NCBI GenBank assembly: GCA_023256455.1
Contig: JAGDXN010000080.1
Span: 1-29,815 of the forward strand
Direction: 5' to 3'
Source: Cuniculiplasma sp.
GTDB taxonomy: Archaea > Thermoplasmatota > Thermoplasmata > Thermoplasmatales > Thermoplasmataceae
Length of the DNA: 29,815 nt
Both the position numbers and the translations under genes were made by a program. Positions 7,025-15,702 of the stretch are shown in pieces (within the stretch, counting starts at the first letter, position 1; every line of letters starts with the position of its first letter). Under the pieces are notes generated by a model. It searched no databases. It saw only the letters and a program-made list of their open reading frames with translations, and was not told the DNA's origin.

Positions 7025-8421
7025 AAAATCTCAGGTGGGACCCTCCGGGAAAATATATCCCTCAGGGTTTTCCTGTTTAATTTTTCTGAGGATTTTAGAA
7101 TAATTTTTTCTCCATCTTTTACAATTCTCAAATCGTCAATTTTCATTTCCCTTTTTATCAATTCTTCCATATCCCTTACAGGATAGGATTTCCCCAGGGA
7201 TATTATTACGTTTTCGTCAAGGATGATTCTTTCCTCCAGTCCCGATTCTGTCATGAATATGTCTGTTTTCACATATTCATTCTCACCGGCAGATACCATT
7301 GTGCCGCTGGCCATTATATTTCCGTCCCTTTCCATTAACTTCAATTCTTCTTCATTTTCAATGAATTTTACAAATTTTCCATTTTCTGACTCCTGTTTCC
7401 AGTAAAGGGGGACAGGAAGATGCTCATCACATAGAAGGGTGAAAACCGATGATCTCTTTTCCTTCAGACCTTCAATTATCTGCCTTCCCATAATGCCTCT
7501 GGAAAAGATAAGAGATATCTGTGATCTCTCCTTCTTTTCAGCGTCCCTCAGGAAATCTGATCTGCAGGAGTTTACGTTGAAAATGAATGAGCTCTCTGAA
7601 GAATATTTCTTTTCAACAGCTTTCAAATCATTCTCATCATCCGGAAATTCCATTCCAATTCCGTGGCCATAATGGAGAGGATAGATGTAAGAAAGAATGA
7701 CAGACTGGGCATCGGAAGGTTCATGGGCCTGTATGAATGTGGAATTTTCCCTTGATATGAGTTTTTCCATATATTTCCTTGCTGCTTCCACAACTTCACC
7801 TGCAGTGAATTTAACAATGGAAAAGGAGCCATTGCTTTTCCAGACTATATTGGCAAGGGCAGGATCAGTATAGGGATCAATCTTCTCACTGTCACCCTCC
7901 TCCCCGTAGCAGCTTTCCTCCAGAACTGCCCTCTGCCTTGTCCCCTTTGGCCTGTAAAGGAGAAAATCTTCCGGCGGGTCCTGGAAATGGGCCAGAAAAT
8001 CTCCCGGATCTGTGAGGAGATTGAATATGCTCGATGTATCCTCTCTGTTTATCTTGCTATAAAGGCCCTCGTATGTTATAATTCCCGAGATTTTTCCGCT
8101 TGATACGATCTTATCAATGGCCGATACAGGCATTCTTGAATCTATGGGAACCGGCACCAGACCCTTTTTCCACAGAGCAAAATAGGAAAGAATTGACTGC
8201 ACAGACTGGGGAAGGCACACACCAATAATATCACCCTTTTTAACTGAAAACCTGTCCATTATTGCCTCTGAGAGTGAACCTGCCATGCTTTTAAAATCGC
8301 TGTAACTCCACACGTTCCCACCGTAGAAAACCGCAGGGTAGCTTTCATACTTCTCTGCAGCCTCCGAAAGGAAATTCCAGGGTGATCTTACCGATTCCGA
8401 TCTTTCCATTGTGCCAATCAC
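7006..8421 (-). CDS. Degenerate AMP-binding (acyl-CoA synthetase-like) protein
   Basis: The 471-residue product starts as an ANL-family (acyl/aryl-CoA ligase) protein: WNFLSEAAEKY, VWSYSDFKSMAGSL, GDIIGVCLPQSVQSILSYFALWKKGLVPVPID. The catalytic core is eroded. The P-loop TSGTTGxPKG is replaced by WKSNGSFSIVKF, no YGxTE motif is seen, the YxTGD motif reads YVKTDIF, and the C-terminal catalytic-Lys region reads SEKLNRKTLRDIF. It is therefore probably not a normal adenylating enzyme. The GTG at 8421 overlaps the nnr stop as GTGA, which implies translational coupling; an ATG at 8409 is the alternative. The frame is intact, so it is a maintained paralogue rather than a pseudogene. Its role is unknown. 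Confidence 0.75.
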   Translation of the reverse strand: MIGTMERSESVRSPWNFLSEAAEKYESYPAVFYGGNVWSYSDFKSMAGSLSEAIMDRFSVKKGDIIGVCLPQSVQSILSYFALWKKGLVPVPIDSRMPVSAIDKIVSSGKISGIITYEGLYSKINREDTSSIFNLLTDPGDFLAHFQDPPEDFLLYRPKGTRQRAVLEESCYGEEGDSEKIDPYTDPALANIVWKSNGSFSIVKFTAGEVVEAARKYMEKLISRENSTFIQAHEPSDAQSVILSYIYPLHYGHGIGMEFPDDENDLKAVEKKYSSESSFIFNVNSCRSDFLRDAEKKERSQISLIFSRGIMGRQIIEGLKEKRSSVFTLLCDEHLPVPLYWKQESENGKFVKFIENEEELKLMERDGNIMASGTMVSAGENEYVKTDIFMTESGLEERIILDENVIISLGKSYPVRDMEELIKREMKIDDLRIVKDGEKIILKSSEKLNRKTLRDIFSRRVPPEIFRLIED

Positions 8422-9830
8422 CCCCTGGTATTTACGTAATCATAATATTCTTTCATTGTGGGGCCAAGATTTTCAATGAGATCGGATGTGTTCCACCAGT
8501 ATCCGGAAAACTTTTCCAGAGATTCCGCGGCCTTCTTGTTTATCATGGATGCAAGGACTGCTGCCCTGAAGGGTTTCATGCCCCTTGCAAGAAGTCCCGC
8601 AGCCAGACCTGCAAGAACGTCACCTGTGCCTCCCGTGGCCATTCTTGGGGTTCCACCTGAAGACATTATTGTTCTCTTTCCATCTGTGATTATATCGGTT
8701 TTCCCCTTCAGAAGGATCACGCATCTGTTCTCCCTTGCGAACCTTTCCGCATTTTCCCTGTTTGCTTCATAACCTGACAGTACCCTGAACTCCTCACTGT
8801 GGGGTGTATAAATGGCATTTTCCATAACAGGAATAATTGCTTCGCCCGTAATCCTGATGGCGTCTGCATCCAGTACCGCATATTTCCCCGATTTCTGTAT
8901 GATCTCCATGGCCTTTACAGCCTCATAGGATTTTCCCATTCCCGGGCCTGCAAGAATTGCAGTGGATTTTGATATCAATTTTTTCATTATATCTTCATCA
9001 TATACGGAAACCATCTGATCCGTGAGTCTTGATGCAAAAACATGGTACTTATTTTCAGGGACAAGTATTTCTACGAGATCAGGTAAACCTCTGAGAGATG
9101 CCTGCGCGGACATTATTCCTGCGCCATGATGCTCCCATCCCCCTATTATTAGCAATCTTCCATTCATTCCCTTATGTGTATCTGGATCATATTTTGGAAA
9201 GAAAACCATGTCCCCCCGGCCTGCATTTTCAATGAGAGATCTGTCTATGCCGATATTTTTCAGAACTATTTCACCGGAATTGGATTCATCCATCCCTTCC
9301 TTTATATCCGTGAATGTCACAGTTATTTTTGGTTTTACGGCAACATCTGATCCAAGGCCTGATGGAATGTCCACAGATATTACGGGCTTGCCTGTTCTGT
9401 TAATTTCCTGAATCACAGAAAGATAGGGTTCTCTCATTTTTCCCTTAATTCCAGTTCCGAGCAGGGCATCCACAATGACTTCTGCCCATCCCAGTTCACT
9501 TTTAACCGCATCCTTTGATGGATTTTTTATTATGGATGCGTTTTTCATCTCCCTTATGGCCATGGATGGGAGTTCACCTATCTGACCATCCGGTCCTGTA
9601 AAGAGAAGAATTCTCACCCTGTTTTCATAACTTAGAAGGGATGCGGCGATGAGGCCGTCACCACCATTGTTGCCCTTTCCGCATACAAACAGTACATTTT
9701 TGCCTCCGCCATAGAAATCCTTAATCGATTCGTATACCGCCTTCCCTGCATTCTTCATCAATGGGAAAAGGTCTCTGTGCTTTTCCAGATAGTTGAAGTC
9801 CAGCCTCCGGCTTTCATCGAAATCCATCAT
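8418..9830 (-). CDS. nnr: Bifunctional NAD(P)HX epimerase/dehydratase Nnr
   Basis: This repair enzyme converts damaged hydrated NAD(P)H back to NAD(P)H. The N-terminal YjeF_N-type epimerase domain (about 1-205) has LMKNAGKAVYESI, GKGNNGGDGLIAA (residues 51-63), DALLGTGIKG and SVDIPSGL. The C-terminal ribokinase-like ADP/ATP-dependent dehydratase domain (about 215-470) has GRLLIIGGW, LAGPGMGKS, TPHSEEF, LLKGKTDII and the catalytic GGTGD at 400-404. The length is normal for the fused bacterial/archaeal form. Two ATGs are adjacent (9830 and 9827). It is the first gene of a two-gene operon with the degenerate AMP-binding protein and is divergent from glnA. Confidence 0.93.
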   Translation of the reverse strand: MMDFDESRRLDFNYLEKHRDLFPLMKNAGKAVYESIKDFYGGGKNVLFVCGKGNNGGDGLIAASLLSYENRVRILLFTGPDGQIGELPSMAIREMKNASIIKNPSKDAVKSELGWAEVIVDALLGTGIKGKMREPYLSVIQEINRTGKPVISVDIPSGLGSDVAVKPKITVTFTDIKEGMDESNSGEIVLKNIGIDRSLIENAGRGDMVFFPKYDPDTHKGMNGRLLIIGGWEHHGAGIMSAQASLRGLPDLVEILVPENKYHVFASRLTDQMVSVYDEDIMKKLISKSTAILAGPGMGKSYEAVKAMEIIQKSGKYAVLDADAIRITGEAIIPVMENAIYTPHSEEFRVLSGYEANRENAERFARENRCVILLKGKTDIITDGKRTIMSSGGTPRMATGGTGDVLAGLAAGLLARGMKPFRAAVLASMINKKAAESLEKFSGYWWNTSDLIENLGPTMKEYYDYVNTRG

Positions 9831-9890: not shown

Positions 9891-11222
9891 ATGGAAGATA
9901 AGATTCAGATCAGCCTTGAAAGGCTGAGAAAGGAACAGATTGACTTTCTGCACATGCAGTTTACAGATATACAGGGCATTGTGAAAACTGTTACACTGCC
10001 AAAAAACAGATTTGAGGATGCACTCAATGAGGGTGTGGTCTTCGACGGAAGCTCTGTGGCAGGTTATGCCCAGATTGAAGAATCTGATATGCGTGCCGTT
10101 CCTGATCTTGACACCTATGCAGTTTACCCCTATTCTTCCCAGGGAAACGCTGCAAGATATATTTGCAACATTTACAACCCCGATGGGACAAGGTTTGAGG
10201 GTGATCCCAGATATGTCCTTGAGAGAAACCTCAAAAAGGTCTGGGAAAAGAACATGGAGTTTTTTGTTGGGCCCGAGTTTGAATTTTTCGTGTTTAAGAG
10301 AGATGCCAGTGGAAATCCTGTGAATGAACCCGGAGATTATGGAGGCTATTTTGATCACACACCAAATGACAGGGCAGCACAGATAAGGCAGGAAATTCTA
10401 ACATATCTTAGACTGCTTGGCTATGAACCGGAAGCTGCCCATCATGAGGTTGCATGGGGCCAGCAGGAAATAGATCTGAGATATGCAGCAGCCATGACCA
10501 TGGCAGACAGGATCACTGTTTTGAAAAGCGTGATAAAGAATGCCGCAGAAAACCATGGCATGTATGCATCCTTCATGCCCAAGCCCATAAACGGCGTAAA
10601 CGGATCGGGTATGCATATCCATCAGAGTATAATGGCAAAGGATCAAAAGAAAAATTACTTTTATGATGAATCAAATGCCCATGGTTTGAGTGAAATGGCA
10701 AGGCAGTACACCGCAGGCATATTGAAATATATCAATCAGGGTTCTGCCATTCTGGCATCATGGGTAAATTCCTACAAGAGGCTCATACCCGGATATGAGG
10801 CGCCGGTGTATATTTCATGGGCCAACAGGAACAGAACGGCTCTGGTTAGAATACCTGCGGGAAAGAACATGAGAAAGAGGATTGAGTTGAGATGCCCCGA
10901 TCCCGCAGGAAATCCATATCTTCAGTTTGCCACGGTCCTTGGAATGGGTCTGAAGGGAATTGAGGAGAAGCTTGAACTGCCAGATCCTGTGGAGAAGGAT
11001 ATATTCCACATGACTCCTGAGGAAAGAGTGAAAAATGGAATATATGCCATGCCTGAGAGTCTTGGTGAGGCATTGCACCATCTGAGGTCAAGCACAGCGA
11101 TGAAGGAGATTCTCGGTGAACACGTTTACAACAATTTCATAACCGTGAAGCAGAAGGAATGGGATGCCTTCAGATCCCACGTGACAGAATGGGAATTAAA
11201 GAGATACCTCAATATTCTCTAA
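9891..11222 (+). CDS. glnA: Glutamine synthetase, type I
   Basis: GlnA makes glutamine from glutamate, ammonia and ATP as a dodecamer. The 443-residue length and motifs are those of GSI: the latch VVFDGSSVAGYAQIEESDM, the metal and glutamate-binding VGPEFEFFVF, NGSGMHIHQS, the Glu-flap region PGYEAPVY and RIELRCPDPAGNPY. The region where adenylylated bacterial enzymes have a NLYxLPP tyrosine here reads IFHMTPEE, so control by adenylylation is unlikely. That fits the shorter GSI-alpha group. The ATG has a TATA box at leaderless spacing. It ends two bases from the convergent PP-loop gene with a shared hairpin. Confidence 0.96.
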   Translation: MEDKIQISLERLRKEQIDFLHMQFTDIQGIVKTVTLPKNRFEDALNEGVVFDGSSVAGYAQIEESDMRAVPDLDTYAVYPYSSQGNAARYICNIYNPDGTRFEGDPRYVLERNLKKVWEKNMEFFVGPEFEFFVFKRDASGNPVNEPGDYGGYFDHTPNDRAAQIRQEILTYLRLLGYEPEAAHHEVAWGQQEIDLRYAAAMTMADRITVLKSVIKNAAENHGMYASFMPKPINGVNGSGMHIHQSIMAKDQKKNYFYDESNAHGLSEMARQYTAGILKYINQGSAILASWVNSYKRLIPGYEAPVYISWANRNRTALVRIPAGKNMRKRIELRCPDPAGNPYLQFATVLGMGLKGIEEKLELPDPVEKDIFHMTPEERVKNGIYAMPESLGEALHHLRSSTAMKEILGEHVYNNFITVKQKEWDAFRSHVTEWELKRYLNIL

Positions 11223-11239
11223 AATCAACATTTTGATTT
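11222..11239. terminator. Hairpin shared by glnA and the PP-loop gene
   Basis: AAATCAA and TTGATTT are perfect 7-base arms around CATT. The glnA stop codon TAA ends at the first base of the repeat and the minus-strand stop TGA (11225-11227) lies inside the left arm. Confidence 0.45.
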
Positions 11240-12625
11240 AATCCATTTTCCATCATCAAGGGACCAGCATCCGGAAGTATATTCCGAAAATATTTTTCCG
11301 ATCCTTTCCCTGAAATCCTCAGGTATCTGGGAAAGGGCATTTTTTTCCCCGGGAATTATGTGTATTCCAGACACATGGGTTTTTTTGTTGAATTTTTTTG
11401 ACTGCAAACCTTCCATCATGAGATTGAGCTCATCCGGATCAAGTTTGAGCCTTTCCCTGCCGATCAGATCTGGAATGTCATCGGGCTTTCCATAAAATAT
11501 CTTTTCCGGATCGCCTGAAGCATATTCAATGAAAAGCCTGACACCAAGGCATTTTGAACATTTTCCGCATGGCACAACATTTCCCATTTTATCGTAATGG
11601 CATGAATGACATGATCTTTGAAGCATGTAAAGATCGGGATATCTGTTTACAAGGATGTCCTCCACAACACAGCCATAAATGGCATATACTGCAGACCACA
11701 GACTGCAGGCTATGCCCTTGCTTTCCATATAGGATGTGAATGCGTTCTGAAAATCAGGGCTCTGGTCATAAACTCCGTAATAGTGTTTAATCCCCATGTA
11801 GGGTGGTTCTTCCACAGGATCGTCAAACTCGTTGCCCATAAGTATATTCCCTATTCCATTTTTGATTATGGCCGGAAGGAATGACATTAAGTATGGGGTG
11901 AAGGTGAACAGCTGCACGGGATAGTCATCTGCCCACCTGAAGGCCCTTTCGTCCAGAATCTTCATATTCCTGTTCATGAAATTGTAAAAACGGTCTATGT
12001 TGGACCATACCCTTACACTTTCAATTCCATTTTCCTTAAAATATCTGTGGGACGGGAGGGCCAGTTTCCAGTGTCCACCGGATTCGTTGAAGAACAGTGC
12101 CAGCGGATTTTCGCCCAGTTCCCTCATCATGCCTGCTGTCATCAGACTCTCCTTCCCTCCTGAAGAGAGAACAGCAACTCTCTTTCCTGCTGGAAAGGAC
12201 TGATCCTGAAAGCTTTGGGTGAATATGAATTCTGTATTTCCCTCTGCATTTTTCTGGTTAATATCCTTCTCCTCAGGGAGATATTCCTGCCTGAAAAATT
12301 CATACCTTCTTCTGCAGAGCCTGTTTACAAAAACCTCAATATTATTTATTCTGGCCATTTCCCTTATGAATTTCCTGTCCTCTTCAGATGTGGGAAAATC
12401 AACAACGATTTTTCCCGTGAAAAGTGAGTAGTTTATAACTGCCCATATACCTGCAAGGCCTGCAAGATTCTGGCTATTTTTAATATCAGTGTCATATTTG
12501 AATATAAGCTGGAATGATAAATCGGGATCTTTTATTATAATATCAATAACAGATTCTTCCCTGTTGAATCTGTTAACACTGACCCTTATTTCAGAAAAGC
12601 ATCTTATTTTCTGGATATAATCCAA
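11225..12625 (-). CDS. PP-loop ATPase with QueC-like cysteine cluster
   Basis: The 466-residue protein has an N-terminal domain of about 145 residues that I do not recognise. A PP-loop pyrophosphatase motif follows (VLSSGGKESL, SGGKES at 155-160), then conserved-looking blocks such as FNESGGHW and ILMGNEFDDP. A cysteine cluster (C339, C342, C353, C356, C359) ends in CGKCSKCLGVRL. The C-x10-C-x2-C-x2-C pattern resembles the zinc site of QueC, the 7-cyano-7-deazaguanine synthase. PP-loop enzymes adenylate a carboxylate or carbonyl before amidation, nitrile formation or thiolation. The TTG start is chosen because AGGGTG lies six bases upstream and no ATG is near. It is the last gene of a three-gene operon. 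Substrate unknown. Confidence 0.75.
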   Translation of the reverse strand: MDYIQKIRCFSEIRVSVNRFNREESVIDIIIKDPDLSFQLIFKYDTDIKNSQNLAGLAGIWAVINYSLFTGKIVVDFPTSEEDRKFIREMARINNIEVFVNRLCRRRYEFFRQEYLPEEKDINQKNAEGNTEFIFTQSFQDQSFPAGKRVAVLSSGGKESLMTAGMMRELGENPLALFFNESGGHWKLALPSHRYFKENGIESVRVWSNIDRFYNFMNRNMKILDERAFRWADDYPVQLFTFTPYLMSFLPAIIKNGIGNILMGNEFDDPVEEPPYMGIKHYYGVYDQSPDFQNAFTSYMESKGIACSLWSAVYAIYGCVVEDILVNRYPDLYMLQRSCHSCHYDKMGNVVPCGKCSKCLGVRLFIEYASGDPEKIFYGKPDDIPDLIGRERLKLDPDELNLMMEGLQSKKFNKKTHVSGIHIIPGEKNALSQIPEDFRERIGKIFSEYTSGCWSLDDGKWIKSKC

Positions 12626-12628
12626 GGA

Positions 12629-13660
12629 CTACACCCTTTCGAGGATTGCCTTTCCCATTTCGTCTGTGCTTTTAAGGGGATTGAAAACAGGAATTCCATA
12701 CTTTTTTTCAAGCCTGTCCATCTCAATGCCGATTTCCTCTTCATTCATGTTTTCCACATTGAGGGATATGCCAATAACATCCCTGTCTGAAAGCATCTGC
12801 AGAATTTTAATAAACTTCTCCAGAGGGGGAATGGGTATTCCATCGAAACCGTCATAATCCTTTCTTTTAGGTGCATGCTGAAGTATGATTGCGTCAGGCT
12901 TCCCTGCAGCAATTATTTCAAAACTTCCCGGATATGCCGGGTGAAGTACAGATCCCTGGCCTTCAAGAAACATGTAATCAGGCTTCTCCCTATCCCATGC
13001 CTCAAGAATTGCACTTTCAATTCCCCCTGCAACAAAATCATTTATCATGGAATCGATCACAACAGTATAGGGAAACCCCTGCATCCATGCGGTCTGTCCT
13101 GTGCCAATCATCACAGATGTTTTTCCAAGTTTTTTCATGGATTGGTTCAAATATACAGCAGTTGTCCTCTTTCCTATGGCACTGTCAGTACCAAGGACGG
13201 CGATCCTTTTTGATCTTACTTCCCTGATTCTGCCTGTGTAGAAGTCCCTTCTCTTCATGAATATTTTTCTTACATCCACAATTTCTGTTCCCTTTTTCTG
13301 TGCAATACTGGAAAATTCTGGATCGTCGCTAATAAACTCATGAAGACCACTCACAACCTTCAGCCCTGATTCCAGGGCCTTTCTTATGTATGGCCGGTAA
13401 TTCTCAGGTAAAAATCCTCCATCTGTTGCAACACCCACAACCATGGTCTCCATACCAAGATCCATGGCCTCTTCCAGGCTTCCCACTATTTTTATGGATT
13501 CCTTTGCCCTTGGGACTATCTTCCCAATGGGCAATCCCTTCTTTGTGCTATCTATTGCAGCAACAACGTCAAACCTTGTTGTATATCTGCACAGTCCATT
13601 TGCCGTCTTCCCGTAAGTTGTGCCGAGAAAACCCTCTGAAAGTACCGCAGCTTTTTCCAT
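12629..13660 (-). CDS. DUF1611 family P-loop protein (DgcN-like)
   Basis: The 343-residue protein matches the DUF1611 layout: an N-terminal Rossmann-like domain (about 1-140, with KAAVLSEGFLGTTYGKTANG and VVGVATDGG) and a C-terminal P-loop domain (about 150-343) with Walker A GTDSAIGKRT at 157-166, YMFLEGQGSVLHPAYPG and QHAPKRKDYDGF. Some bacterial members (DgcN) are reported as D-glutamate N-acetyltransferases acting with a dipeptide-epimerase partner. No such epimerase is in this window, so the reaction here is open. Its ATG directly follows the stop of the PLP-enzyme gene with no gap, and its stop is three bases before the PP-loop start, so the three are surely co-transcribed. Confidence 0.82.
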   Translation of the reverse strand: MEKAAVLSEGFLGTTYGKTANGLCRYTTRFDVVAAIDSTKKGLPIGKIVPRAKESIKIVGSLEEAMDLGMETMVVGVATDGGFLPENYRPYIRKALESGLKVVSGLHEFISDDPEFSSIAQKKGTEIVDVRKIFMKRRDFYTGRIREVRSKRIAVLGTDSAIGKRTTAVYLNQSMKKLGKTSVMIGTGQTAWMQGFPYTVVIDSMINDFVAGGIESAILEAWDREKPDYMFLEGQGSVLHPAYPGSFEIIAAGKPDAIILQHAPKRKDYDGFDGIPIPPLEKFIKILQMLSDRDVIGISLNVENMNEEEIGIEMDRLEKKYGIPVFNPLKSTDEMGKAILERV

Positions 13661-14614
13661 TTAATTTCCACGACCGGTAAGGATAACTGCAACATCCCCA
13701 TTATAATTTTTGTTTCTCAGCAGTCTGTATGTGGCCGAGAGTGCTGAGGCTGATGCGGGAAGAACCTGCAATGACTGCATATTTGCGATGAGCCTTGAGA
13801 ACTTTACCATCTCCTGATCGTTAATGCCTATGGCCACACCCCTTGATTCATATATGGCATTGAGCGCCTTCTGACCGTCCAGAGCCCTGAAGGATACCAG
13901 TGGCTCATTTACCTCTGTCTCCACGATCCTTGCCGGCTCAAGTTCCTGTATCTTCCTGTATCCATGCTTCCATGAATAGACGATTGGGTTTCCAAGGGAT
14001 GTGCTTGATCCTATCAGCCTTGGAATGCTGTTTATTTTCCCTGAACGGTACATCTTCTTGAAACCACTGTAAATTCCTGCAATAGTTGTTCCATTTCCAA
14101 GAGGACATGCAACATAGGCAGGGGAATGACCCATCTGGTTTACAATCTCATAGGCTATGGATTCATAACCTATGGAATCAACCCATGAATTGATCGAACC
14201 CGGACTGCAGTCATACCAGTTCTCTTCCACCGATTTATCCTTTATGTATTCTACCAGATCCTCATATTTCATATCTTTCTTTATGAGGGTTGCACCACTG
14301 TCATATATTTCATCATTCCTCGCACCTGTGTAGAATGATGGTGTTGCAACTACAGCCCTTATTCCCATCTGAGAAGCAAAGTATGCCACAGATGCACCGT
14401 AATTGCCACAGGTTGCAACGGAGATGGTATCATAACCCATCTGAATTGCCCTCTTAACATGAAGCCTTGATATCCTGTCTTTCTGCGTTCCCGTTAACGA
14501 GGACCCCTCATATTTGAAAAAGATGTTTTTGAGGCTCAGGGCTTTCTCAATATTTACTGCCCTGAACAGGGGCGTTAATCCGGGAGGTTTTTCTTCCTCC
14601 AAAAGCTGTTCCAT
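13661..14614 (-). CDS. Threonine synthase-like PLP enzyme (fold type II)
   Basis: The 317-residue protein has the fold-type-II PLP pattern: the Schiff-base lysine K45 in SLTGTQKDR, the substrate loop CGNYGAS (69-75), the PLP-phosphate loop PLGNGTTIAG (171-180) and LPASASALSA near the end. It most resembles threonine synthase/cysteate-synthase relatives, but the CGNYG loop differs from the usual SxGNT(S/A) of threonine synthase and SGNHG of dehydratases. The exact beta- or gamma-replacement reaction, or a racemase activity, cannot be told. The ATG at 14614 is preferred over the GTG at 14626 because GGTGA sits eight bases before it. It is the first gene of the operon with DUF1611 and the PP-loop enzyme. 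Confidence 0.82.
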   Translation of the reverse strand: MEQLLEEEKPPGLTPLFRAVNIEKALSLKNIFFKYEGSSLTGTQKDRISRLHVKRAIQMGYDTISVATCGNYGASVAYFASQMGIRAVVATPSFYTGARNDEIYDSGATLIKKDMKYEDLVEYIKDKSVEENWYDCSPGSINSWVDSIGYESIAYEIVNQMGHSPAYVACPLGNGTTIAGIYSGFKKMYRSGKINSIPRLIGSSTSLGNPIVYSWKHGYRKIQELEPARIVETEVNEPLVSFRALDGQKALNAIYESRGVAIGINDQEMVKFSRLIANMQSLQVLPASASALSATYRLLRNKNYNGDVAVILTGRGN

Positions 14615-14622
14615 TATGTATT

Positions 14623-14627
14623 TCACC
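14623..14627 (-). promoter_or_regulatory. Ribosome-binding site deciding the PLP-enzyme start
   Basis: GGTGA on the minus strand, eight bases before the ATG ending at 14614, matches the anti-Shine-Dalgarno sequence. The in-frame GTG start at 14626 would use bases of this site itself, so the ATG is the better start. Confidence 0.5.
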
Positions 14628-14663
14628 AGACCTTACTTGAGGTCAATCAGTTATTGATAAAAA

Positions 14664-14673
14664 GTATATAAAG
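14664..14673 (-). promoter_or_regulatory. TATA box of the PLP/DUF1611/PP-loop operon
   Basis: CTTTATATAC on the minus strand predicts transcription starting near 14642, which gives a leader of about 28 bases containing the GGTGA site. This operon is thus one of the few units here that is not leaderless. Confidence 0.5.
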
Positions 14674-14934
14674 ATTGGTTAAAAATTCCGACAAAAATGT
14701 TGTATGGCGACCCTGATTTTTTCAGTGATTATAAAAATTATGAAATGATTATACAATAAGATTTATTAATTTTTAAATATGTTTATAATCAAATTTAATA
14801 GTTGCACTCTTAAGCCTGTAAAATAGGTATTTTGTAAGAATATGAAAATTTAAATCGATCAATGGAAGAAAATCAATTTTTTCAGTAAATAAAGTGTCAG
14901 GATGCAATATGATATATAATTGTTAAATAATTTT
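14674..14934. other. A/T-rich spacer with three TGATTATA copies
   Basis: No gene or RNA is recognisable in this spacer. The octamer TGATTATA occurs at 14726-14733 and 14746-14753 (20 bases apart, two helical turns) and inverted at 14784-14791. They lie upstream of the operon's TATA box and could be activator sites. The A+T richness makes chance copies possible. Confidence 0.3.
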
Positions 14935-14961
14935 ATTATAAATATATTAAATATTTATAAT
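14935..14961 (-). terminator. Hairpin over the dtdA stop codon
   Basis: ATTATAAATAT and ATATTTATAAT are perfect 11-base arms around ATTAA. The dtdA stop codon (14947-14949) lies in the loop. This is the longest perfect arm of the stop-codon hairpins in the window. Confidence 0.5.
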
Positions 14962-15702
14962 TTCCAGTCCTCTCTCTTCCGATACCCTTTTTACCATGTT
15001 GTAACCCTCAGATTTTGTGCCCTTTTTGTCCACAATAAATCCGCGGCAGTTTTCAGTCCTTTCCACAGCCATATTTATCTCTCTTTCACCGATCTCCTGA
15101 AGCCTGTATTTTGATATGATATGCCCCACATTTACCCTATTTTCCACGATATATGATGAGAATTTTGGTGCATAATGTCCTCCGCCCACAGCAACATAGT
15201 TTGGATAGTTCTCTTTTTTGTACTCCGTTGCACCCTTATAGAGAACATCCAGTGCAACCGGATCCTTCCAGTTTTCCTCTTCTGTTCCAATCTCTGCAAA
15301 TATTATGGGTCTTTTCGTTAAAGGTCCGTGATGGGTTGCCTCAAAGGTCACAGCATATTTTTCCCCTTGATAGGCGTTGATCATTCTTCTCAGCATGGCT
15401 GTCTGCACTTCCGGGGAAGAAGGGCATATTTCCCCCTCCTTTCCCCCAAGATCGGCCCTGCTGAAATTTCCAACTGGGTGAACGGTGATTGAATTTACCT
15501 TTTTCTCAGATGAATGCCTGCTCAGAAACACGATTATATCATATTTTTTATCCACAATTTCCTCCACATCATCCAGCAGAGGCAGCCTCCTGTCTGCAAG
15601 AAAATATCTTTCCTTATTTTGATCCCTTTCCCTGAAATAGTTGTATATGGTTATGCTTGCATCATCTGCGGTTGTTCCAATAAATGCAATATTTTCTGTC
15701 AT
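14947..15702 (-). CDS. dtdA: D-aminoacyl-tRNA deacylase, archaeal DtdA type
   Basis: DtdA hydrolyses D-amino acids mischarged on tRNA. The 251-residue protein has the family blocks: AFIGTTADDASITI at the start, FLSRHSSEKKVNSITVHPVGN, the metal-site stretch TFEATHHGPLTKRP, FAEIGTEEENWKDP and VGGGHYAPKF with VGHIISKYRL. This is the GEK1/DTD2 family of archaea and plants, not bacterial DTD1. The start ATG overlaps the upstream gene's stop as ATGA (15699-15702), so the two are co-translated. The downstream operon with a DUF1611 protein may share a D-amino-acid theme, which is inference. Confidence 0.95.
   Translation of the reverse strand: MTENIAFIGTTADDASITIYNYFRERDQNKERYFLADRRLPLLDDVEEIVDKKYDIIVFLSRHSSEKKVNSITVHPVGNFSRADLGGKEGEICPSSPEVQTAMLRRMINAYQGEKYAVTFEATHHGPLTKRPIIFAEIGTEEENWKDPVALDVLYKGATEYKKENYPNYVAVGGGHYAPKFSSYIVENRVNVGHIISKYRLQEIGEREINMAVERTENCRGFIVDKKGTKSEGYNMVKRVSEERGLEIINI

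Follow-up and report, generated by a model that had tools for sequence, protein, structure and literature searches.

A conserved operon of a PLP enzyme, a DUF1611 protein and a PP-loop protein in Cuniculiplasma, and its possible role in N-acyl amino acid metabolism

The operon and its genomic setting

We describe here a three-gene operon on a stretch of archaeal DNA from Cuniculiplasma sp. (GenBank assembly GCA_023256455.1, contig JAGDXN010000080.1, positions 1 to 29,815; the whole stretch of 29,815 nucleotides is referred to as the window). The three genes, aligned on the minus strand, encode a pyridoxal phosphate (PLP) enzyme of fold II, a DUF1611 protein and a PP-loop protein (Table 1). As reported in the initial annotation, all three open reading frames are present and the gaps, read from the sequence, are 0 and 3 bases: the TAA of the PLP gene (13661-13663) is followed by the ATG of the DUF1611 gene at 13660, and the TAG of the latter (12629-12631) by the TTG of the PP-loop gene at 12625. 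The operon is real and is not peculiar to this locus. A spacer of 320 bases separates the PLP gene from the end of the next upstream gene on the same strand. The TATA box formerly assigned to the operon is the TATA-like TTTATATA, located about 40 bases 5' of the PLP start codon (GTG at 14626, with an alternative in-frame ATG at 14614), and it stands as a consensus match and nothing beyond. A sigma-70 scan of positions 11000-15000, which is not an archaeal promoter model, gave 12 sites against 9.9 (standard deviation 3.5) in shuffled sequences.

The host assembly consists of 1.5 Mb in 90 contigs and is 87.55% complete. Among the protein matches listed (best 120 of 837), the best named match was from Cuniculiplasma sp. 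SKW4 (69%, P0003), a genus of Thermoplasmatales, and orthologues were found in Thermoplasma volcanium and Picrophilus, both culturable archaea.

Table 1. Positions of the operon genes and flanking features within the window
Feature	Position	Strand	Evidence or remark
PLP enzyme, fold II, NCBIfam PRK06381	13661-14626	-	PF00291 E 1.3e-49; NF004996 422.2 bits
DUF1611 protein	12629-13660	-	PF07755 E 7.5e-63; PF17396 E 1.3e-27
PP-loop protein, 466 aa, probable zinc site; remote relative of MurL, QatC and QueC	11225-12625	-	
TATA-like box 5' of the operon	14665-14672	-	consensus match in sequence
DtdA, D-aminoacyl-tRNA deacylase; neighbour, possibly linked in function	14947-15702	-	PF04414 E 5e-63
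Glutamine synthetase gene	9891-11222	+ (opposite strand)	ends two bases from the PP-loop gene

Conservation of the gene order and partner genes

The distribution of the three genes was determined in a set of 292 genomes of the phylum. The PP-loop protein is encoded in 56 of them, namely all 29 listed genomes of the window's own family (f1), both of family f3, none of the five of family f2, and 25 more distant genomes. PRK06381 (NF004996), the family of the PLP enzyme, was above its cut-off in 55 genomes, including 53 of the 56 with the PP-loop protein versus only 2 of the 236 without it (G077 and G251), and in none of 14 control genomes. The PP-loop genomes without PRK06381 above cut-off were G262, G126 and G199, the gene of G199 being cut by a contig end. 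Matches to PRK06381 at E 0.001, those below cut-off included, were found in as many as 229 of the 292 genomes because other threonine-synthase-type enzymes are related. DUF1611 was present in 81 genomes, 55 of the 56 with the PP-loop protein versus 26 of the 236 without it. Among the 40 phylum loci with wide flanks, the order PLP, DUF1611, PP-loop was found in 36, the contigs of L034 and L037 ending within the PLP gene; the exceptions were L032 and L033, without an adjacent PLP gene (for L032, the PRK06381 gene of genome G113 sits on another contig), and L042 and L044, without both partners.

Named genomes were scanned with an alignment of the PP-loop protein alone (A2), and 80 of 129 relatives were kept as loci, in which partners were counted by tblastn (E 1e-5 and more than 50 bits). 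DUF1611 was detected in 72 loci and the PLP enzyme in 59, while all three genes were aligned in order on one strand in 58; the PLP and DUF1611 alignments lay within 90 bases of each other in 56 of these complete loci. Since the 80 loci were picked by the PP-loop protein alone, this order, together with that in 36 of the 40 phylum loci, is more than chance. The eight loci without DUF1611 were L096, L118, L119, L125, L139, L144, L149 and L152, the last of which begins at a contig end. DUF1611 and PP-loop genes with no adjacent PLP gene were observed in L138, L146, L150, L151, L153, L155, L079 and L083, not all of which are contig-end cuts; where the PLP gene is not adjacent, its step may be dispensable or the gene may lie at another site.

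The initial annotation left it to be seen whether the trio is confined to one species, and the same order was found in both archaeal and bacterial records. The archaeal titles include Thermoplasmata, Bathyarchaeota, Thermofilum, Methanodesulfokora and Thaumarchaeota, and 17 loci carry bacterial labels (Acidobacteria, Myxococcales, Spirochaetaceae, Nitrosomonas, Gemmatimonadetes, KSB1, Rhodothermales, Calditrichaeota, Caldiserica and others). As most of the 80 loci come from metagenome-assembled genomes, taxon labels can be wrong. L078, from such an assembly titled Proteobacteria, encodes three proteins 100% identical to those of L050 from genome G043 of the window's phylum; its label is probably wrong, and it was therefore not counted as bacterial. 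In seven bacterial-labelled loci (L101, L147, L133 and others) the identity to the best archaeal-labelled partner was 65-75% for the PLP enzyme and 61-65% for the DUF1611 protein, but only 36-39% for the PP-loop protein, suggesting either inter-domain transfer or very uneven rates. The pairwise distances of the three proteins, taken from 53 of the 58 complete loci, were correlated (r 0.61, 0.71 and 0.78; Mantel p 0.001 each); these correlations are not used as proof because common descent alone could yield them. Overall, the trio is kept in order from Thermoplasmatales to genomes labelled Bathyarchaeia, Thermofilum, acidobacterial and spirochaetal, and the three proteins probably serve one job.

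Additional partners were identified in the 80 loci, including GNAT (24 loci), DtdA (18), an enolase-type epimerase (16), creatininase (11) and an M14 hydrolase (8). The reactions of these partners concern amide bonds, N-acyl groups and the stereochemistry at C-alpha. The PP-loop protein runs in frame into a creatininase domain in seven bacterial-labelled loci (L086, L093, L101, L135, L141, L142 and L154), and a separate creatininase gene lies 3' of the PP-loop gene in four others (L111, L128, L137 and L149); the assignment was confirmed by Pfam in L101, L137, L142 and L149 and by NCBIfam in L141, the rest being tblastn matches. Eight of these 11 loci also carry an enolase-type epimerase, for which the nearest model in L137 was L-Ala-D/L-Glu epimerase (240 bits, cut-off 500), DgcA being third (171 bits, cut-off 400). 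GNAT, M14 and enolase-type epimerase genes occur together in eight archaeal-labelled loci, although in L045 the M14 assignment is borderline, at 21.7 bits against a cut-off of 21.6. In 16 of the 18 wide f1 loci (L052-L069), DtdA precedes the PLP gene and has the same orientation, the exceptions being L055, where it lies on the other side, and L064, where none was found; this linkage may reflect shared descent. In a Nitrosomonas locus (L118:7995-12027) the PP-loop gene stands in a row with genes for a D-Ala-D-Ala-ligase-like ATP-grasp protein, a GNAT protein and a DapF-like epimerase, an arrangement suggestive of a distinct operon for small peptides or D-amino acids; the ATP-grasp, GNAT and DapF-like partners were not found by tblastn in L139 and L144. 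In L051 a class-I glutamine amidotransferase gene (8286-8882), encoded on the other strand, separates the DUF1611 gene from the PP-loop gene.

Relationships of the three proteins

The assignments of the fold-II PLP enzyme and the DUF1611 protein made in the initial annotation agree with the Pfam matches (Table 1). PRK06381, for which the cut-off of 266 bits is exceeded by the PLP enzyme, is a family named threonine synthase, and the nearest sequences in PDB are also threonine synthases, with which the enzyme shares the PALP fold and the motif of the PLP lysine (Lys49 in TGTQKDR). In contrast, the score against thrC (TIGR00260) was 76.6 bits, under the cut-off of 167.1, and the loop reads TCGN[YF]G (TCGNYG with Cys73 in the window) in place of STGNT in thrC. 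Residues were compared in an alignment of 56 trio enzymes (the window and 55 of 59 relatives, short or stop-containing sequences being dropped) with five threonine-synthase-type enzymes and one IlvA from phylum genomes. The Arg of NPxR, which binds the substrate phosphate in threonine synthase, was present in all five threonine-synthase-type rows versus none of the 56 trio enzymes. Cys73, at the position before Gly-Asn in the Asn loop [ST]CGN[YF]G, was invariant in all 56, while this position is occupied by Thr in three ThrC rows, Asn in two PRK08197 rows and Ala in IlvA. Of the 59 PLP genes found in the 80 loci, 58 have the loop motif, the exception (L102) being cut. We take the residue just before Gly-Asn to correspond to Ser84 of serine racemase. 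In an excerpt of the work on that enzyme, Ser84 was proposed as the re-face base and Lys56 as the si-face base (PMC6424897), and this analogy suggests that Lys49 and Cys73 would form a two-base racemase.

The PLP enzyme is not the sole threonine-synthase-type enzyme of the organism, a possibility raised in the initial annotation. A PRK06450-like gene is located on host contig C74 in two pieces around masked bases, the first with two CxxC pairs and the second (223 aa) scoring 187 bits, against a cut-off of 301 set for the whole protein. Relatives likewise carry separate genes, above the thrC cut-off in L186 and L187 (251 and 258 bits) and above that of PRK08197 in L185 and L189. Judged by these sequence comparisons, the PLP enzyme is probably something other than a threonine synthase, and since PRK06381 is above cut-off in the phylum nearly only together with the PP-loop protein (53 of 55 genomes), the name of the family is probably wrong.

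The DUF1611 protein, composed of a Rossmann-like N domain and a P-loop C domain, scored 212 bits with PF07755 (cut-off 25) and 96.4 bits with PF17396 (cut-off 22.6), and its relatives in PDB are 2g0t, 7xrj and 2obn. The nearest functional model was DgcN (D-Glu N-acetyltransferase, NF041892) with 180.4 bits, under the cut-off of 480, indicating by sequence that the two proteins are related. DgcN and DgcA convert D-Glu to L-Glu in a catabolic pathway, according to an excerpt of PMC10845958. The trio resembles this pathway in the DUF1611 protein and, in 16 of the 80 loci, in an enolase-type epimerase akin to both DgcA and L-Ala-D/L-Glu epimerase, but differs in scores far under the DgcN and DgcA cut-offs, in the additional PLP enzyme and PP-loop protein, and, in the window, in the lack of an adjacent epimerase gene.

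The PP-loop protein contains the motif SSGGKES as well as a cluster of Cys and His residues, where Cys339, Cys353, Cys356 and Cys359 form a probable zinc site. The first spacing, from an alignment that left out L034 (stop), is 13 residues, while the zinc motif of QueC is C(x)8CxxCxxC. The label 'QueC-like' given in the initial annotation holds for the fold, a structure model being nearest to QatC and QueC and within the fold of the QueC superfamily, but not for the family: no Pfam family, PF06508 (QueC) included, was matched by the window protein at E 0.1 or at E 10, and QueC matches were found in 2 of 24 family members (best E 0.33). No NCBIfam match was found for it at E 0.1, the MurL model NF041275 having a cut-off of 700 bits. 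A QueC function was rejected, because a separate QueC is encoded elsewhere in the host genome and PF06508 is not matched. Two other candidates were rejected: DUF6395 gave weak matches in 8 of 24 members (best 0.019) and in 1 of 274 genomes at E 0.001, none above cut-off, and anti-phage defence was represented in PADLOC by QueC only (2 of 12 members, best 0.00098).

Profiles of the PP-loop protein were compared by hhalign with three families, MurL, QueC (11 of 12 loci) and, as a PP-loop control, MnmA (4 sequences). Alignment A4 matched MurL at E 9.8e-9 over 198 columns, QueC at 2.5e-6 over 202 and MnmA at 8.8e-5 over 36; the 17 bacterial-labelled PP-loop proteins, a grouping drawn from 78 of the 80, matched MurL at 2.3e-10 over 263 columns. 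The stretches aligned with MurL cover the PP-loop motif, an SLLRPLSEL-like motif and the C..CxxCxxC cluster. By profile, MurL is thus the nearest of the three families compared, as a remote relative at superfamily level. In a sequence search of PDB, the best match of A4 was a designed protein (0.094), followed by Cap9 (0.13), while the best match of the MurL alignment A3 was at 0.45. Excerpts of PMC5808125 and PMC8788868 describe MurL as an ATP-dependent peptidyl-glutamate epimerase that runs only from L to D by a mechanism called unclear, and the MurL gene as linked to murD2 (PMC8788868). The operon differs from MurL in that the PP-loop protein is under the family cut-off and has as neighbours DUF1611, the PLP enzyme and glutamine synthetase, with no murD2. 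A further difference is that the host archaeon is not expected to have peptidoglycan.

Proposed pathway and its alternatives

The reading that we prefer, with a probability of roughly 0.38, is that the three genes specify a conserved pathway in which an amino acid is N-acylated and its carboxylate adenylated, leading either to an ATP-driven stereo-inversion or to a ligation. The PLP enzyme would make or racemise the amino acid, putatively an acidic (Glu- or Asp-like) one, and the DUF1611 protein would acylate its amine, as DgcN does with D-glutamate. The PP-loop/zinc protein would then spend ATP to activate the carboxylate of this N-acyl amino acid as an acyl-adenylate, a reaction also proposed for MurL acting on peptidyl-L-glutamate; adenylation of a carboxylate stays the best reading of this protein. 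Epimerisation of the adenylate at C-alpha and its hydrolysis would give a net ATP-driven inversion, the outcome slightly preferred here, while attack by an amine would give ligation. In relatives, deacylation or the completion of the inversion could fall to the creatininase-type or M14 hydrolase and the enolase-type epimerase. On chemical grounds, N-acylation and subsequent carboxylate activation would raise the acidity of the C-alpha proton, and this would account for an N-acyltransferase beside a MurL relative.

This pathway retains part of the initial annotation, in which the operon was proposed to make a non-standard amino acid and to activate or attach it. The conservation of the trio and the presence of another threonine-synthase-type gene agree with that proposal, while MurL turned out nearer than QueC by profile, and the epimerase, amidohydrolase, GNAT and DtdA partners shift the theme to N-acyl and D-amino acids. 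In keeping with the statement there that no pathway with this trio is known, none was found in the open-licence literature searched, in which DUF1611 led to papers on phages and on Dickeya. A term search of a 2026 survey of the QueC family gave no match for DUF1611, MurL or threonine synthase; no report of a Thermoplasma D-aminoacyl-tRNA deacylase was found in the open-licence literature, and papers on other enzymes were found there for D-amino acids and racemase in Thermoplasma acidophilum.

Several observations weigh against the proposed N-acylation and activation. The DUF1611 protein scores well short of the DgcN cut-off, none of the epimerase, creatininase and M14 genes seen in relatives was found adjoining the trio of the window, 14 of the 72 DUF1611 loci lack an adjacent PLP gene (some being cut by contig ends), and G126, a single chromosome, encodes the PP-loop protein without either partner. 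The link to MurL is also remote. Alignment A2 matched MurL with a probability of only 58.6%, and its profile, run over 274 genomes, gave G292 and weak matches and did not recover the MurL genes, which NF041275 detects in 6 of the same genomes. By hmmscan, MurL was matched in 1 of 12 A2 members (0.011) and in L101 (5.9e-6, 25 of 700 bits), but not in L128, L137 or L141. As the control pair QueC-MnmA (1.2e-8 over 175 columns) is as strong as the MurL link, the latter stands for superfamily kinship and not for shared function.

The main rival, which matches the general idea of the initial annotation and which we consider somewhat less likely than the preferred reading, is a biosynthesis by ligation, in which the PP-loop protein joins an amino acid, N-acylated or not, to ammonia or an amine to form a small amide, dipeptide, solute or cofactor, with the PLP enzyme supplying an unusual amino acid. 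Enzymes of the QueC fold use amines or ammonia, and the QueC relative Cap9, according to an excerpt of its description, couples a compound with a carboxylate to the amine at a protein N-terminus; the amidotransferase gene of L051 and the gene row of L118 point the same way, but each of these arrangements occurs in a single locus (one wide locus and 1 of 80 loci, respectively), and hydrolases and epimerases are the commoner partners. Scavenging of D-amino acids, for instance from bacterial murein, has a distinctly smaller chance. Here the DUF1611 protein would acylate the D-amino acid, inversion would be due to the PP-loop protein or to the enolase-type epimerase, and a hydrolase would release the L-amino acid, in agreement with the catabolic role of the DgcN pathway (excerpt of PMC10845958), with the M14 and L-Ala-D/L-Glu-epimerase-like genes of the eight archaeal-labelled loci and with DtdA adjoining the trio in Thermoplasmatales. 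Such scavenging is opposed by the L-to-D direction of MurL (excerpts of PMC5808125 and PMC8788868) and by the possible shared descent of the DtdA linkage. An ordinary threonine synthase beside two unrelated genes would account for the name of PRK06381, its score above cut-off and the nearest PDB sequences, but is highly improbable in view of the trio order and co-occurrence, the low TIGR00260 score, the missing NPxR Arg in all 56 enzymes, the separate thrC-type genes of relatives and the split PRK06450-like gene of the host.

In its broadest form, which is more doubtful than the pathway itself, the preferred N-acylation and activation scheme would place MurL-type chemistry beyond murein: an N-acyl D-amino acid would be made and used in a broad archaeal and bacterial pathway to which the PRK06381 family belongs, through a two-base PLP racemase (Lys49 and Cys73), an N-acyltransferase and a PP-loop/zinc epimerase (or ligase) that spends ATP. 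The PP-loop protein, though part of a widely kept unit, is covered by no Pfam or NCBIfam family model, and its orthologues in the culturable Thermoplasma volcanium and Picrophilus make the idea testable. If true, ATP-driven epimerisation or activation of amino acids would extend past peptidoglycan, MurL would be joined with the QueC/QatC superfamily, and the threonine synthase annotation of a whole family would be corrected.

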